Source of the DNA: Acidobacteriaceae bacterium KBS 83
GTDB lineage: Bacteria; Acidobacteriota; Terriglobia; Terriglobales; Acidobacteriaceae
Reading direction: 5' to 3'
NCBI GenBank assembly: GCA_000381585.1
Contig: KB906733.1
Coordinates: 1-64,000 of the forward strand
DNA length: 64,000 nt
The position numbers were made by a program, and so were the translations under genes. The notes under the pieces were generated by a model. It was given only the letters and a program-made list of their open reading frames with translations, was not told the DNA's origin and did no database searches. Shown here piece by piece: positions 40,901-45,084 of this stretch (its first letter is position 1; the number at the start of each line of letters is the position of its first letter).

Positions 40901-42055
40901 ATGATTCGCAGCCTCCGCTCCTGTCTCTTCCTCTTCGGGGCCCTTTCTCTTGCGATGGTCAGCATGGCTGCCCACGGACAGCAGATGAGCGTGGAGCCTC
41001 CATTGCATACCAGGGGGCACCAGATTGTGGACGCGGCGAATCACAGCGTGCGGCTGACTTCTGTGAACTGGTACGGCTTCGACCAGAAGGAATTTGTGGT
41101 TGGAGGGCTTGATCACGCACCGCTCGCCACCATCGTCAGCGAGATCGTTGCGCTCGGCGTGAATTCGGTGAGGCTGCCCTGGGCGAATGAGACGCTAGAG
41201 CACAATCCTGTCGTGCGCGACTACGCGGTCAAGGCGAATCCGCAATTCAAGGGCAAGCGGGCGATGGAGATTATGGATGCGGTTGTGGCTGCGCTGGCGA
41301 AGGCGCACGTCATGGTCATCCTGGACAACCATATGAGCCGCGCGGATTGGTGCTGCAGCGAGAAGGATGGAAACGGACTCTGGTTTAACGCCGAGTATCC
41401 GGAAAGCAAGTGGCTGGCGGACTGGCGGACGATCGCGGGCCGCTACCAGCATGAGCGCTGGGTGATCGGCGCTGACCTGCGCAACGAACTGCGCAGCGGG
41501 GCAGCGTGGGGCGGCGCTGATCCAAAGCTCGACTGGCATGCGGCGGCGGAACGCGGCGGCAACGCGGCCCTCGCGGTGAATCCGCGGCTCCTGATCATGG
41601 TGGAGAGCCCGGACTACTCCACGAACTTTGCGGGATTCGACAAGCTGCCCGTGCGCCTGAAGGTAGCGGATCAGCTGGTGTACTCGCCACATGCATATGC
41701 CCCGTCCGATCACGTGTTTTCAAACTATGAGGAGCTGAAGCAGGTCTATGACGCGCGCGCGGGGTTTTTACTGCACGCGGAGCCGGCCGTGCCGTTGTGG
41801 GTGGGAGAGTTTGGGACCTGCCAGACATTGAAGTGCGGGGCGAACTCGGACTGGTTCAGGCTTTTTGTGCGCTATCTGAAAGAGAACGACCTTGCATGGA
41901 GCTACTGGCCGCTGAATGGCACGCAGTCCAACGGCGAGGGACGAAAATACGACACGGTCGAAACCTTCGGCCTGCTGTCGCCCGACTACCGGCAAGTCGG
42001 CGCACCGATAGTCGTCGAACTCTTGCGCACGATCGAAAATCAACCACCTCGCTGA
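40901..42055 (+). CDS. Secreted glycoside hydrolase family 5 (cellulase-type)
   Basis: A 384-residue extracellular beta-glycanase candidate. The signal peptide is MIRSLRSCLFLFGALSLAMV. The GH5 landmarks are SVNWYGFDQKEFVVGGLDHA near the N-terminus, VILDNHMSRADWCCS, and the acid/base Glu in GADLRNELRSG. The His/Tyr in YSPHAYAPSDH and the nucleophile Glu in WVGEFGTCQ are also present. The closest type is endoglucanase; the exact substrate is uncertain. A short CCTGAG/CTCAGG stem lies just before the ATG. Confidence 0.92.
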   Translation: MIRSLRSCLFLFGALSLAMVSMAAHGQQMSVEPPLHTRGHQIVDAANHSVRLTSVNWYGFDQKEFVVGGLDHAPLATIVSEIVALGVNSVRLPWANETLEHNPVVRDYAVKANPQFKGKRAMEIMDAVVAALAKAHVMVILDNHMSRADWCCSEKDGNGLWFNAEYPESKWLADWRTIAGRYQHERWVIGADLRNELRSGAAWGGADPKLDWHAAAERGGNAALAVNPRLLIMVESPDYSTNFAGFDKLPVRLKVADQLVYSPHAYAPSDHVFSNYEELKQVYDARAGFLLHAEPAVPLWVGEFGTCQTLKCGANSDWFRLFVRYLKENDLAWSYWPLNGTQSNGEGRKYDTVETFGLLSPDYRQVGAPIVVELLRTIENQPPR

Positions 42056-42227
42056 TGCTTTCGTTCAACTCTGCACACAACGCCAATATCTCGGTTGGTG
42101 ACATCAGGACAAGTCCCTCATCAAGCCGCTCAGCCTTCGAATAGCAGTCGAGTGCTTCTAAAAAGGATTGATCGTCAATAGGGATAATGCTAACGTCTCG
42201 GAGGAAAGGAGGCACACAATGCGTCAA
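42056..42227 (-). pseudogene. Possible gene fragment on the minus strand
   Basis: Between the GH5 gene and the next plus-strand genes the minus strand reads about 57 codons of protein-like sequence (VSIIPIDDQSFLEALDCYSK, then EILALCAELNESISEV) and then runs antisense into the GH5 gene without a stop of its own. Composition is less GC-rich than the GH5 gene. It may be the 5' part of a gene cut off by insertion or deletion. No family recognised. Confidence 0.3.
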
Positions 42228-42314
42228 CTGTCTTCGTACTTATCGCGACTAAGTAGCTATGCATTTGGCACGGCGCAGGATTGCTTTCTTCCAGCCTTTC
42301 TGACCCGCGCCTGA
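42219..42314 (+). CDS. 31-residue small ORF with perfect Shine-Dalgarno
   Basis: AGGAGG lies 6 bases before the ATG, the best ribosome binding site in this region. The frame encodes 31 residues starting MRQLSSYLSRLSSYAFGTAQ and ending with TGA 31 bases before the next gene. It may be a leader peptide or a small regulatory protein for the gene at 42346. No similarity known to me. Confidence 0.45.
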   Translation: MRQLSSYLSRLSSYAFGTAQDCFLPAFLTRA

Positions 42315-42328
42315 CACAACCCAATTAC

Positions 42329-42345
42329 ACAACTTAAGGAGTTGT
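42329..42345 (+). promoter_or_regulatory. Hairpin holding the Shine-Dalgarno of the next gene
   Basis: ACAACT-TAAGG-AGTTGT is a perfect 6-bp stem-loop placed directly against the ATG at 42346. The ribosome binding site AAGGAG lies half in the loop and half in the stem, so folding would limit initiation. Confidence 0.55.
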
Positions 42346-43086
42346 ATGACGACCCAGGATTTCTTGTGTCGGCACTTCTCCCGTATGGGTGCACGTGTAC
42401 GAGTCCAATCACTCGACGTGCAGCCAGGGTTGAAGATCCGAATTGATATCGGCAGGGACCGCTCTGGCGAATTCTTCGACATTCGATGTGAGGAGGGGGT
42501 TGTACCCGAAGTCCTCGATGTGCAACCTCCGACTTGCCATCTGGTGTTGATGGTTCGTGATGAAGCCGCCAGAAACAAGTTCCTGCTTGGACGCGATGAG
42601 CGCCACTGGTTTGCCGCCACTGTACCCGGTGATGGCGTCCGCGATGTGCGGACCGCGATTGAAAGCCTTCGGCCCACAGAAATCGAAGGCCGCAAGGCGA
42701 TCCGGCAGGGTGAGTGGTTCTTTATTCCGGAGCGCGGTGTCAACGAAAGAGACGCCGTGATTCATCGCAATAAACCTCTCAGCCGCGGAAGCGGAAGCAA
42801 GCCTCACATCTGCGAAGAGATGGTGAGGCCCGGTGGAGAAATCGTTATGGTGAGTGCCGCTTACCCCACAGGCGTAAGCCCGGAAAAGTACGAGCAGCTT
42901 CTCTCCATCGATCCCCGCGCCAGCAGCATGCACTGGCAACGCTTTACACGCGATGCGGAAGTGTATGTCCGCGGCGAGGTCCGACATCGAGATCACAAAA
43001 CTGTTGATCTCGACGGTTGGCATCGTGTCTACATGAACCGGGAGCGCTTCGCGCGGCACGCGCCGCAGATCGCGTTTCTCGACTAA
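42346..43086 (+). CDS. Hypothetical protein
   Basis: 246 residues, soluble, no signal peptide. It includes PTCHLVLMVRDEAARNKFLL, GRDERHWFAATVPGDGVRDV, IRQGEWFFIPERGVNERDAV and DGWHRVYMNRERFARHAP. The regular alternation of short beta-like motifs suggests a globular enzyme or binding protein, but I do not recognise the family. The gene is preceded by a small ORF and a hairpin at its ribosome binding site, so translation may be controlled. It is followed by a strong palindromic hairpin. Base composition is below that of the neighbouring core genes. Confidence 0.75.
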   Translation: MTTQDFLCRHFSRMGARVRVQSLDVQPGLKIRIDIGRDRSGEFFDIRCEEGVVPEVLDVQPPTCHLVLMVRDEAARNKFLLGRDERHWFAATVPGDGVRDVRTAIESLRPTEIEGRKAIRQGEWFFIPERGVNERDAVIHRNKPLSRGSGSKPHICEEMVRPGGEIVMVSAAYPTGVSPEKYEQLLSIDPRASSMHWQRFTRDAEVYVRGEVRHRDHKTVDLDGWHRVYMNRERFARHAPQIAFLD

Positions 43087-43089
43087 CCT

Positions 43090-43119
43090 CCAGCGCGTCA
43101 GTCCAACCTGACGCGCTGG
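43090..43119 (+). terminator. Palindromic hairpin between convergent genes
   Basis: A perfect 11-bp stem CCAGCGCGTCA/TGACGCGCTGG with an 8-base loop lies four bases after the stop of the upstream gene. No T run follows on either strand, but its place between convergent genes fits a terminator. Confidence 0.55.
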
Positions 43120-43170
43120 CGTCAATCTAGTCTTCGGTCGATCTCTCTACCGGAGAGCGCACGATGTTAG

Positions 43171-45084
43171 CTACGGAAGCTCTACAGCCCAGGCATCAAT
43201 CTTCCAACCTGCTTGCTCTTTGCCCCACAGCAGCAGAAGCGTGGGTGATTGTTCCTCCCCGTAGTTGAATCGGCTCGCGGTCAAATAATATGTTCCGTAT
43301 TTTGCGTCGGCGGGCTTCAAGTCCGAAGAACTTTCGGGCAGGTCACGATGGTGGCACAGAAAGCTGTCGGCCTTCTGGTCCGGCACGGCCATGATCGCGA
43401 AAGCCTTCGAGTTTTCCTGCTCGACTGGGCGCAGCAGATCGTTGACGGGCTGCACACTCGACATCATCTCCGATAGATTCGAGCCGGCGGGTATTCTCGT
43501 GAGCGGCGTTTCCAGCGCAGACTGGATTCTGGCGATGGGCGTCATTTTCTTCTGGTCGCCGGAGGGGGCCGGCAGACACTGGTAGGAGCGCTGTGACGCA
43601 AAGCGGGCAGCCTGCGCAACATCCCGTTTCACGATCCAGCTTTGGTAGAACTGCGTCATGTCTTTCACAGAGGCGGGATCACCGGCGATGCTCTGCGGTT
43701 CTTCCTCGGCGGGTGCGGCCTGAGCTACGGCGTTGTTTGGGACGAGGCCTGCATCGCCGCTATCTTCGATGCGGATGGCAATGATTTTCCAGTAGCCGAC
43801 CTCCTGAGTCCAAAGCAGGGACATAACCTTGTTCCGGCTATCTCCGTTTTTTCCGCGAAATGCAGTGGCGAAGAATTTCTCCTTCGACTTTTTGCTCGAC
43901 TCGCCGCCCCGTACGGCAACGCATTCCTCGTCCTCTCCCACGTCCACCGGCAGGCTCACTAGCCGGAATTCCGATGCGTACGCGTTCTTTGCCGGCTTCG
44001 ATGATTGCGACCATTTGTCGGCGGGCTCGAACACGTCAGCAACAGAACTCACCGCGCCAAGCTTGTCGCTGAATCTCTGCATTGCGATCATCGTGTGCAT
44101 CCGGATCATGCCTTGTTGCACAGCCTGCGCGTTCTTCTGCGCCAACACCTCGAGACACGGATAACTGCGGCGCGAAAAATAGGCAACCGACATATTCGGT
44201 TCTTTCGCGACAACCCAGGTTTGCAGGAAATCGTGCGCGCTCTTATCGACACCCTCATCGGCTTTCACGCTGGGATTCATGGGAATGTGCCCGAGGCGCT
44301 CGGTGGCCGCCTCCTTCGGTGGCGCTCCGCCACTTCCGAGCTGCCCAAACACATCGCGCCACCAGCCATTGAGGCCCGACCAGCGGCCGTCATGAAGGCC
44401 CAGATTGTTTCCTGCGCGGACGTCCGAGTTGGCAGCGGTCAAGTGTCCATTGACTAGCCCCTTGGGAAAGCCGGAAGCGCGATAGTCGACGTCAACGTCG
44501 GACATTTTGTGGTCGCGCGAAATTGAGAACTGAATCGATGGCGGTCCGTTCTTCAGCCTGTAACAAATCGGAAAACCCTTGTGATACGTGGCGTTGTCCT
44601 TATCGTGAAAGAACTCCTGGCTGCGGCTCAGGGTGTCAACCGCGTTCGCCTTCAGGTAAACATACAGGCGGAATTGCTGGTCACCGCCTGCACCGGCTTC
44701 CTCTCCCATCACCTGATCAACCGCATTCACCAGGTCAATCGCGCGTCCGAGGCTCTTGCCCTGCGAGTCGGTCAATTCAGCGTTTAGCAGCGCATGGGTT
44801 ACAGCGTCGAACGTGGTGCGGACGGACAGCCGGGCACTGTCATAGGCCTGTTGGGGAACGAGCTTGTTTCCGGTGGTGGTGTTATAGCTGCGAATGAAGC
44901 TGTCTACCAGGCGCACTTGCTCAGGACGCAATGTGGCATAGGATTTCCCAAGCTCCAATGTTTCGCCTTTTGATTTTTCGGAAGTGGCCGCCTTCTTCTG
45001 ATTCGGTTGCGTTTGGGCAAAAACCAACTCCATCGCAACAAGTGCGAGAAGGATCAGAAGGAACAGTCGGGCCATACGTTTCAT
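43171..45084 (-). CDS. Large secreted protein of unknown function with internal repeat
   Basis: 637 residues from the ATG at 45084, which has GGAGG 6 bases upstream. The signal peptide is MKRMARLFLLILLALVAMEL. The second half contains two similar modules: FLQTWVVAKEPNMSVAYFSR with RRSYPCL, and FYQSWIVKRDVAQAARFASQ with QRSYQCL. Each is followed by a region ending with a LLW-x-K/Q-E motif (MSLLWTQEVGYWKIIAI, LLLLWGKEQAGWKIDAW), as in NTF2-like folds. The first part has no recognisable domain. Probably extracytoplasmic. Confidence 0.78.
   Translation of the reverse strand: MKRMARLFLLILLALVAMELVFAQTQPNQKKAATSEKSKGETLELGKSYATLRPEQVRLVDSFIRSYNTTTGNKLVPQQAYDSARLSVRTTFDAVTHALLNAELTDSQGKSLGRAIDLVNAVDQVMGEEAGAGGDQQFRLYVYLKANAVDTLSRSQEFFHDKDNATYHKGFPICYRLKNGPPSIQFSISRDHKMSDVDVDYRASGFPKGLVNGHLTAANSDVRAGNNLGLHDGRWSGLNGWWRDVFGQLGSGGAPPKEAATERLGHIPMNPSVKADEGVDKSAHDFLQTWVVAKEPNMSVAYFSRRSYPCLEVLAQKNAQAVQQGMIRMHTMIAMQRFSDKLGAVSSVADVFEPADKWSQSSKPAKNAYASEFRLVSLPVDVGEDEECVAVRGGESSKKSKEKFFATAFRGKNGDSRNKVMSLLWTQEVGYWKIIAIRIEDSGDAGLVPNNAVAQAAPAEEEPQSIAGDPASVKDMTQFYQSWIVKRDVAQAARFASQRSYQCLPAPSGDQKKMTPIARIQSALETPLTRIPAGSNLSEMMSSVQPVNDLLRPVEQENSKAFAIMAVPDQKADSFLCHHRDLPESSSDLKPADAKYGTYYLTASRFNYGEEQSPTLLLLWGKEQAGWKIDAWAVELP

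Follow-up and report, generated by a model that had tools for sequence, protein, structure and literature searches.

A leader ORF upstream of an undescribed gene

The window analysed here is a stretch of 64,000 nucleotides from Acidobacteriaceae bacterium KBS 83 (contig KB906733.1, positions 1 to 64,000 of the forward strand). In this window, a small open reading frame (ORF) of 31 codons locates upstream of a gene for a protein of 246 amino acids. Both are preceded by a Shine-Dalgarno (SD) sequence, named SD1 for the small ORF (referred to as the leader ORF) and SD2 for the gene. The features of the locus, including the arms of two predicted RNA structures (A and B), are as follows.

42168..42196, + strand: promoter-like element, with -35 TTGATC (42168-42173), 17 nt, and extended -10 TGC-TAACGT (42188-42196); window copy read by eye
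42203..42212, + strand: SD1 of the leader ORF, GGAAAGGAGG, at the predicted transcript start; AGGAGG at 42207-42212
42203..42225, + strand: 5′ arm of predicted structure A (SD1, spacer and start codon region), with 42272-42292 as pairing partner
42219..42314, + strand: leader ORF, 31 codons, MRQLSSYLSRLSSYAFGTAQDCFLPAFLTRA; ATG at 42219, stop codon TGA at 42312-42314
42267..42273, + strand: 5′ arm of predicted structure B, GGCACGG, overlapping the structure A arm
42272..42292, + strand: 3′ arm of predicted structure A, within the leader ORF; 17 pairs, duplex of -23.5 kcal/mol in the window
42305..42311, + strand: 3′ arm of predicted structure B, CCGCGCC, beside the leader stop codon; one A.C mismatch in the window
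42315..42335, + strand: linker, C- and A-rich and G-poor; by eye, the other leaders followed by the gene have a similar composition
42336..42341, + strand: SD2 (AAGGAG) of the next gene, within a hairpin (42330-42344) proposed by the first-pass annotation; hairpin not conserved
42346..43086, + strand: gene for the 246-aa protein, ATG at 42346; undescribed family

The first-pass annotation had noted a perfect SD at the ideal distance from the start of a 31-codon ORF, which stops 31 bases before the next gene. All of this is confirmed: AGGAGG lies 6 nt upstream of the ATG at 42219, and 31 nt separate the leader stop from the next ATG. The arrangement AGGAGG-N6-ATG occurs twice in the window versus 0.57 expected by shuffling, and 10 of 100 shuffles reach two. 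Since the single window sequence does not show significance, conservation had to decide. A generic promoter scan of the window found no promoter at the leader. Searched with Rfam 15 at the gathering score, the leader has no match, and the sole match in the whole window is a tRNA (1320-1389).

The leader is conserved in thirteen acidobacterial loci

The region from the promoter to the start codon is alignable in six close loci, from which we built a sequence-only search model. The model matched 10 of 399 genomes of the class, 7 strongly (the window's own included) and 3 weakly, and 11 of 237 genomes of one family, 10 strongly and 1 weakly; nothing was found in L132 or L134. The weak matches L106, L107 and L108 (20.9-23.2 bits), of which L106 came up again in the family search, were rejected on context, having no leader features around them. 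Several matched genomes are those of L002, L004, L005 and L006 again, with identical leaders. In all, we count 13 distinct acidobacterial leaders, L003 and the window included. An SD, an ORF of 24-32 codons and a stem-forming 3′ part are common to the 13. The proposal of the first-pass annotation is supported in that the small ORF is conserved as a leader.

Eight leaders are followed by the gene (window, L002, L003, L004, L005, L006, G739 and G592) and five have no intact gene. In G711 and G889 nothing is left, G792 and G863 retain pieces of the gene, and G862 retains pieces of rtcB2, which belongs to the operon described below.

Nine of the 13 leaders have a promoter pattern, TTGAC. with TGnTAnnnT after a spacer of 17-18 nt; L003, G711 and G792 gave no match to it. 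The pattern ends 6 nt before SD1 (7 in G889). From this position, transcripts should begin at or beside SD1.

The downstream gene heads an RtcB2-PrfH operon in relatives

In L002, the gene for the 246-aa protein is followed by genes for the RNA ligase RtcB2 (TIGR03073, 441.8 bits) and for peptide chain release factor H, PrfH (TIGR03072, 256.6 bits), a pair for 16S rRNA repair and ribosome rescue. The same order is present in L005, G739 and G592, and the L006 contig ends inside rtcB2. That places rtcB2 behind the gene in five of the eight loci with leader and gene, and prfH behind it in four of those. Elsewhere in the phylum, RtcB2 seldom scores above its cut-off (1 of 396 genomes). RtcB-family genes also adjoin homologues of the 246-aa gene in L011 and L007. 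A contig with rtcB2-prfH from the L006 genome (L121) was considered as the rest of the L006 operon; its identity is 92% over an overlap of 420 nt, and it was not counted. The L006 genome has two rtcB2 sequences that are 8% apart where they overlap, which indicates two copies or mixed strains.

The genomes of the window, L003 and L004 gave no RtcB2. A search of the window genome also gave no RtcB, and for PrfH only two matches below the cut-off, in frames of 364 and 375 aa, which we took as RF1/RF2. The window genome keeps the leader and the first gene only, and the link to rtcB2-prfH is observed in its relatives. Because five leaders have lost the gene or keep remnants only, the operon appears to be decaying in several lineages.

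We notice a palindrome, CCAC-N6-GTGG, in the spacer between -35 and -10 of 8 of the 13 leaders (L002, L005, L006, L129, L130, L166, L167 and L168). All five loci in which rtcB2 follows the gene have it, and the three loci with the gene alone lack it (the window judged by eye). The palindrome may be a repressor site (operator) of the full operon.

The 246-aa protein of the window has no match in Pfam, NCBIfam, PHROGs, PADLOC or PDB sequences, and 35 members of its family (set A5) gave weak matches only, in single members each. Among 61 genomes searched around the window, the window's own is the only one with the gene; among 396 genomes of the phylum, 3 have it, again counting the window's own. 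A pattern-based scan of GTDB species genomes revealed 10 relatives, of which five are acidobacterial (62-71% identity) and five come from other phyla (32-42%). Among IMG/VR contigs, a further scan found 88 relatives, of which 80 were kept; many of these viral-collection contigs exceed 100 kb, with lengths up to more than 500 kb (L017-L045 and other IMG/VR loci). Plasmid and phage collections contained no relative.

The AlphaFold2 model of the 246-aa protein is confident (pLDDT 90.7). Foldseek gave no match for it at E <= 0.001 against PDB or BFVD, and the best VIA-align result has a Z of 4.5 over 46 residues of a sheet; the lack of a clear structural match does not establish a new fold. Conserved His, Asp, Glu, Arg and Trp residues in the family would fit a nucleic-acid enzyme. 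The protein represents an undescribed family, encoded by an extra gene at the head of the acidobacterial repair operon. In G592, the gene (L130, 2231-2969) shows a frame change near its end. In L007, the planctomycete homologue is followed, from 3844, by an ORF of some 180 aa whose SD is GGAAAGGAGG. The product of this ORF has a DPPF motif, as in adenine methyltransferases.

The reading frame is kept and the peptide varies

Over the first 26 codons of the leader ORF (22 in three leaders), frame 0 is open in all 13 leaders, frame +1 in 8 and frame +2 in 5. The SD1 spacing is kept at 4-7 nt, and the stop codon has the same position in most leaders, coming early in L006 and late in G592. The second half of the G863 leader is read in another frame.

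A conserved leader peptide was considered and rejected. Near pairs show at least as many non-synonymous as synonymous changes (3 non-synonymous and 3 synonymous codons between L005 and G739, 4 and 0 between L003 and G711), and by eye the middle of the ORF has no common residues. The downstream gene differs between L005 and G739 by 34 synonymous and 31 non-synonymous codons, so the comparison is not a sharp one. Arg-Gln is found at codons 2-3 in 9 of the 13 leaders. Because the frame is kept and the peptide is free to change, the pattern fits a leader whose translation counts more than its product.

The persistence of the leader without an intact gene in 5 of the 13 could reflect decay or a separate role. 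If the leader RNA or its peptide acted alone, for example as a small RNA or a peptide, with the downstream gene being incidental, such persistence would be expected. However, the peptide varies freely, and three of the five (G792, G863 and G862) keep remnants of the gene or of rtcB2, as in a decaying operon. We consider a stand-alone role highly improbable.

The leader is predicted to pair with its own SD and start codon

The first-pass annotation had placed a 6-bp hairpin on SD2. The complementarity around AAGGAG is present (CAACTT/GAGTTG, 42330-42335 and 42339-42344), but it is neither conserved nor the minimum-energy fold of the window. Checked for conservation, the hairpin is the local minimum-energy fold in 1 of the 8 leaders with the gene (L006). 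In the window, the local minimum-energy fold is a rival hairpin whose triloop holds the start codon (GUUGU-AUG-ACGAC), and its z of -1.04 versus shuffles is not unusual. A possible triloop hairpin containing the next gene's start codon (GUYGU-AUG-ACGAC, window 42341-42353) is the local fold in 5 of the 8 leaders. We rejected a conserved hairpin on SD2, since local folds vary among the leaders and SD2 does not pair with the leader ORF more strongly than shuffled sequences do (z from -0.54 to 2.04 in the 8 leaders with the gene, none clearly better).

The conserved RNA structure is a different one, a predicted stem between the SD and start codon of the leader itself and the second half of its ORF. 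This duplex of SD1, spacer and start codon with the ORF (structure A) is predicted in all 13 leaders. The alignment test used the structure of a single row (L004), and three leaders (L003, G711 and L006) do not align well in this region. In this test, 86.2% of 167 cells are paired, versus 49.7-53.6% when the arms are slid. Seven cells have changed on both sides, a number that 1 of 500 shuffles reaches. In the spacer, 3 of the 4 pairs vary on both sides (e.g., UA 7 and CG 4). Over the whole structure, one slid control likewise reaches 4 pairs that vary on both sides, and the number of further pair types does not exceed that of shuffles (497 of 500 are as high).

We also compared cognate with swapped arms of structure A. 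For 7 leaders, 34 of 5040 permutations are as good as the cognate pairing, and for 10 leaders the fraction is 0.019 of 100,000 permutations, with cognate pairing worse than expected in two of the 10 (L004 and G792). The z values range from -1.28 to -3.42 in 9 leaders, with a mean of -2.2 for 7. The control, 34 SD-preceded starts of the window's mechanical ORFs of at least 100 aa, has a mean z of 0.09 (0 of 20,000 resamples). With the weak points given above, covariation supports structure A.

RNAalifold on six leaders revealed a second stem, GGCGCGG/CCGCGCC, which ends at the leader stop codon (structure B). Across the 13 leaders, 93.4% of 91 cells are paired, versus 26-56% when slid. There is one compensatory pair, in G592 (GGCGUGG/CCACGCC), and 39 of 500 shuffles reach as much, so the covariation support for structure B is modest. 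Structures A and B share the GGCGCGG arm, and because of this overlap they would compete. In modelled stability, fully formed A beats B in 6 of the 13 leaders and B beats A in 7.

Possible coupling of the leader to the next gene

Modelled openness of SD2 is clearly higher with structure B than with structure A in three leaders (0.56 vs 0.11 in L004, 0.77 vs 0.57 in L006, 0.45 vs 0.27 in G592) and about equal in the other five of the eight. When a ribosome is modelled at the leader stop, the mean openness of SD2 rises from 0.35 to 0.57, with an increase in 7 of the 8 leaders; the window's SD2 goes only from 0.52 to 0.54, and that of L004 falls. Meanwhile, the mean openness of the next start codon goes from 0.67 to 0.60. 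These models lean towards a coupling in which translation of the leader opens the next gene.

A passive first cistron, in which the strong 5′ SD loads ribosomes and termination with re-initiation raises translation of the next gene without any sensing, shares several of these properties. SD1 is strong and stands at the predicted transcript start, the leader stop is 31-36 nt from the next start in 7 of the 8 leaders with the gene (60 in L006), and placing a ribosome at the stop increases the modelled accessibility of SD2 on average. For a constitutive loader, however, a covarying stem that masks the SD would not be expected, and we consider this explanation rather unlikely.

On the other hand, the untranslated leader and its C-rich linker might be a target of Rho, leading to transcription attenuation. 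The C-rich, G-poor composition of the linker agrees with this, and attenuation is the model proposed, as reported, for the Pseudomonas aeruginosa leader PA5471.1 (PMC12057347, PMC13041342). Against it, a scan of the window leader found no terminator-like site in 41900-43300 (shuffle mean 1.2). The linker is also short for a Rho site. We hold attenuation through Rho to be improbable.

A model for the leader as a sensor of translation

We think it somewhat probable that the leader ORF is translated and regulates an operon for ribosome repair, of which the first gene still lies behind it here, and that it senses the state of translation. Translation control of the leader type as such is well supported by the sequence comparisons. 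The leader-peptide control suggested by the first-pass annotation, in which ribosome movement through the small ORF affects a downstream structure, retains its basis in the conserved leader ORF and in the precedent of PA5471.1, but it loses the hairpin on the next ribosome binding site as its conserved element.

In this model, transcription would start at or beside SD1, on which a ribosome could load at once. If no ribosome loads, the second half of the ORF would pair with SD1 and the start codon, forming structure A and shutting the leader. Translating ribosomes would keep structure A open and let the competing hairpin B form at the stop codon. The RNA would thus carry a record of whether the leader is being translated. 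This record would reach the downstream gene most likely through coupling with the terminating ribosome or because the C-rich linker becomes exposed. By analogy with PA5471.1, what the leader senses may be impaired ribosomes.

A narrower version concerns the end of the 16S rRNA. Colicin E3 cuts 16S rRNA near its 3′ end, and SD1, with which the transcript would open, is an almost full-length complement of the anti-SD. We speculate that the leader could sense the integrity of the 16S rRNA 3′ end: end-cut ribosomes, damaged in the way that RtcB2-PrfH reportedly counters, would be unable to load on SD1, structure A would form, and the output of the operon would change. We regard this as distinctly unlikely; if true, rtcB2-prfH operons of several phyla would repeatedly use self-masked leader SDs to gauge damage.

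To our knowledge, outside the sigma-54/RtcR case little is established about how bacteria notice a damaged decoding centre and turn on its repair. The leader points to a way in which cells may sense translation trouble. A self-masking leader before rtcB2-prfH in Acidobacteriota, with weaker evidence in Enterobacterales and Rhodobacterales, would be a small cis element that is testable in E. coli. The acidobacterial repair operon also gains an undescribed protein family as its first gene.

Comparison with known systems

RtcB2-PrfH has been published as a two-gene operon (PMC9223846, PMC1586002) and, according to PMC9223846, protects E. coli against colicin E3. The same genes carry the acidobacterial leader in the relatives of the window. 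The differences are the extra first gene and, in the window genome, the absence of both known genes.

The closest described leader is that of P. aeruginosa armZ (PA5471, RtcB-like), which has prfH (PA5470) beside it and is reported to be controlled by the leader ORF PA5471.1 (PMC12057347, PMC13041342). According to these reports, deletion of PA5471.1 or an early stop in it raises ArmZ, stalled ribosomes on it have been proposed to increase armZ transcription, and its Gln3 and Phe4 matter in a cca mutant (PMC12057347, PMC13041342). Gln at codon 3 is also what the nine acidobacterial leaders with Arg-Gln at codons 2-3 have. A short ORF upstream of an RtcB-like gene with prfH is likewise observed in L002, L005, G739, G592 and L006 (rtcB2 only), whereas no rtcB2-prfH lies behind the leader in the window genome. 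Unlike PA5471.1, for which a terminator is proposed, the window leader has none that we found, and the acidobacterial loci have the 246-aa gene before rtcB2. The leaders also differ in length, with 24-32 codons in Acidobacteriota and 13 in PA5471.1. In literature searches on PrfH, RtcB, PA5471.1 and anti-SD/colicin E3, no paper listed has a title or displayed abstract that describes the acidobacterial or E. coli leaders.

In E. coli K-12, a 15-codon ORF absent from the record's annotation is present in the yafP-ykfJ intergenic region (L173, 4240-4287), with the SD AAGGAGGT. It stands before rtcB2 (ykfJ/prfH remnants) as AAGGAGGTAAATC-ATG, MTNPLSMTLCRPFQD, and its SD can pair over 10 bp with the ORF (CUGCAAGGAG/CUCUUUGCAG). 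Similar to the acidobacterial leader, E. coli, Proteus and an IncC plasmid combine an SD with an ORF of 13-15 codons able to mask it. Unlike it, these ORFs lie directly before rtcB2 and have an unrelated primary sequence, and the E. coli ORF is followed by a T-rich run.

We tested 10 non-acidobacterial leaders for self-masking. Out of 500 shuffles, 35 are as good for E. coli, 16 for Proteus, 1 for the IncC plasmid and 33 for Tritonibacter; two of these four are borderline, and E. coli alone is not significant. The other six show no self-masking. Small ORFs without significant self-masking are present in Shinella, Rhizobium, Methylosinus, Aureibacter and a planctomycete, the last two read by eye, and nothing convincing was seen upstream of the rtcB2-like gene in Skermanella, Nonomuraea, Novosphingobium KACC 22771 and L134. 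Self-masked leader ORFs before rtcB2 are possible in E. coli, Proteus, the IncC plasmid and Tritonibacter. The leader peptides MQNISTRPIGVPV and MQNISSRPIGVPV of Shinella plasmids and MQNTSTSFAGLVR of the IncC plasmid (L176, L188, L185) look similar across classes.

Outside the 13 leaders, we scanned 17 rtcB2-like loci for an SD before a small ORF. An SD match of at least 5 is found in 9 of the 17, versus 4 of 29 canonical rtcB controls, and a match of at least 6 in 4 of the 17 (two being the same E. coli leader), versus 0 of 29. Among the 17, two Shinella loci and two E. coli loci repeat each other, the scan reported an internal start in L132, and the upstream regions of L181 (match from residue 317) and L178 (from residue 16) are wrong or doubtful. 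Compared with shuffles, only E. coli, Proteus (0/100) and Rhizobium (0.04) fall below 0.05.

In erm-type translational attenuators, translation of a leader ORF decides between alternative stems, and the downstream SD is masked by the leader region. The acidobacterial leader resembles them in having a leader ORF and predicted alternative stems. It differs in that SD2 has no clear pairing with the leader ORF and in that the SD predicted to be masked is the leader's own.
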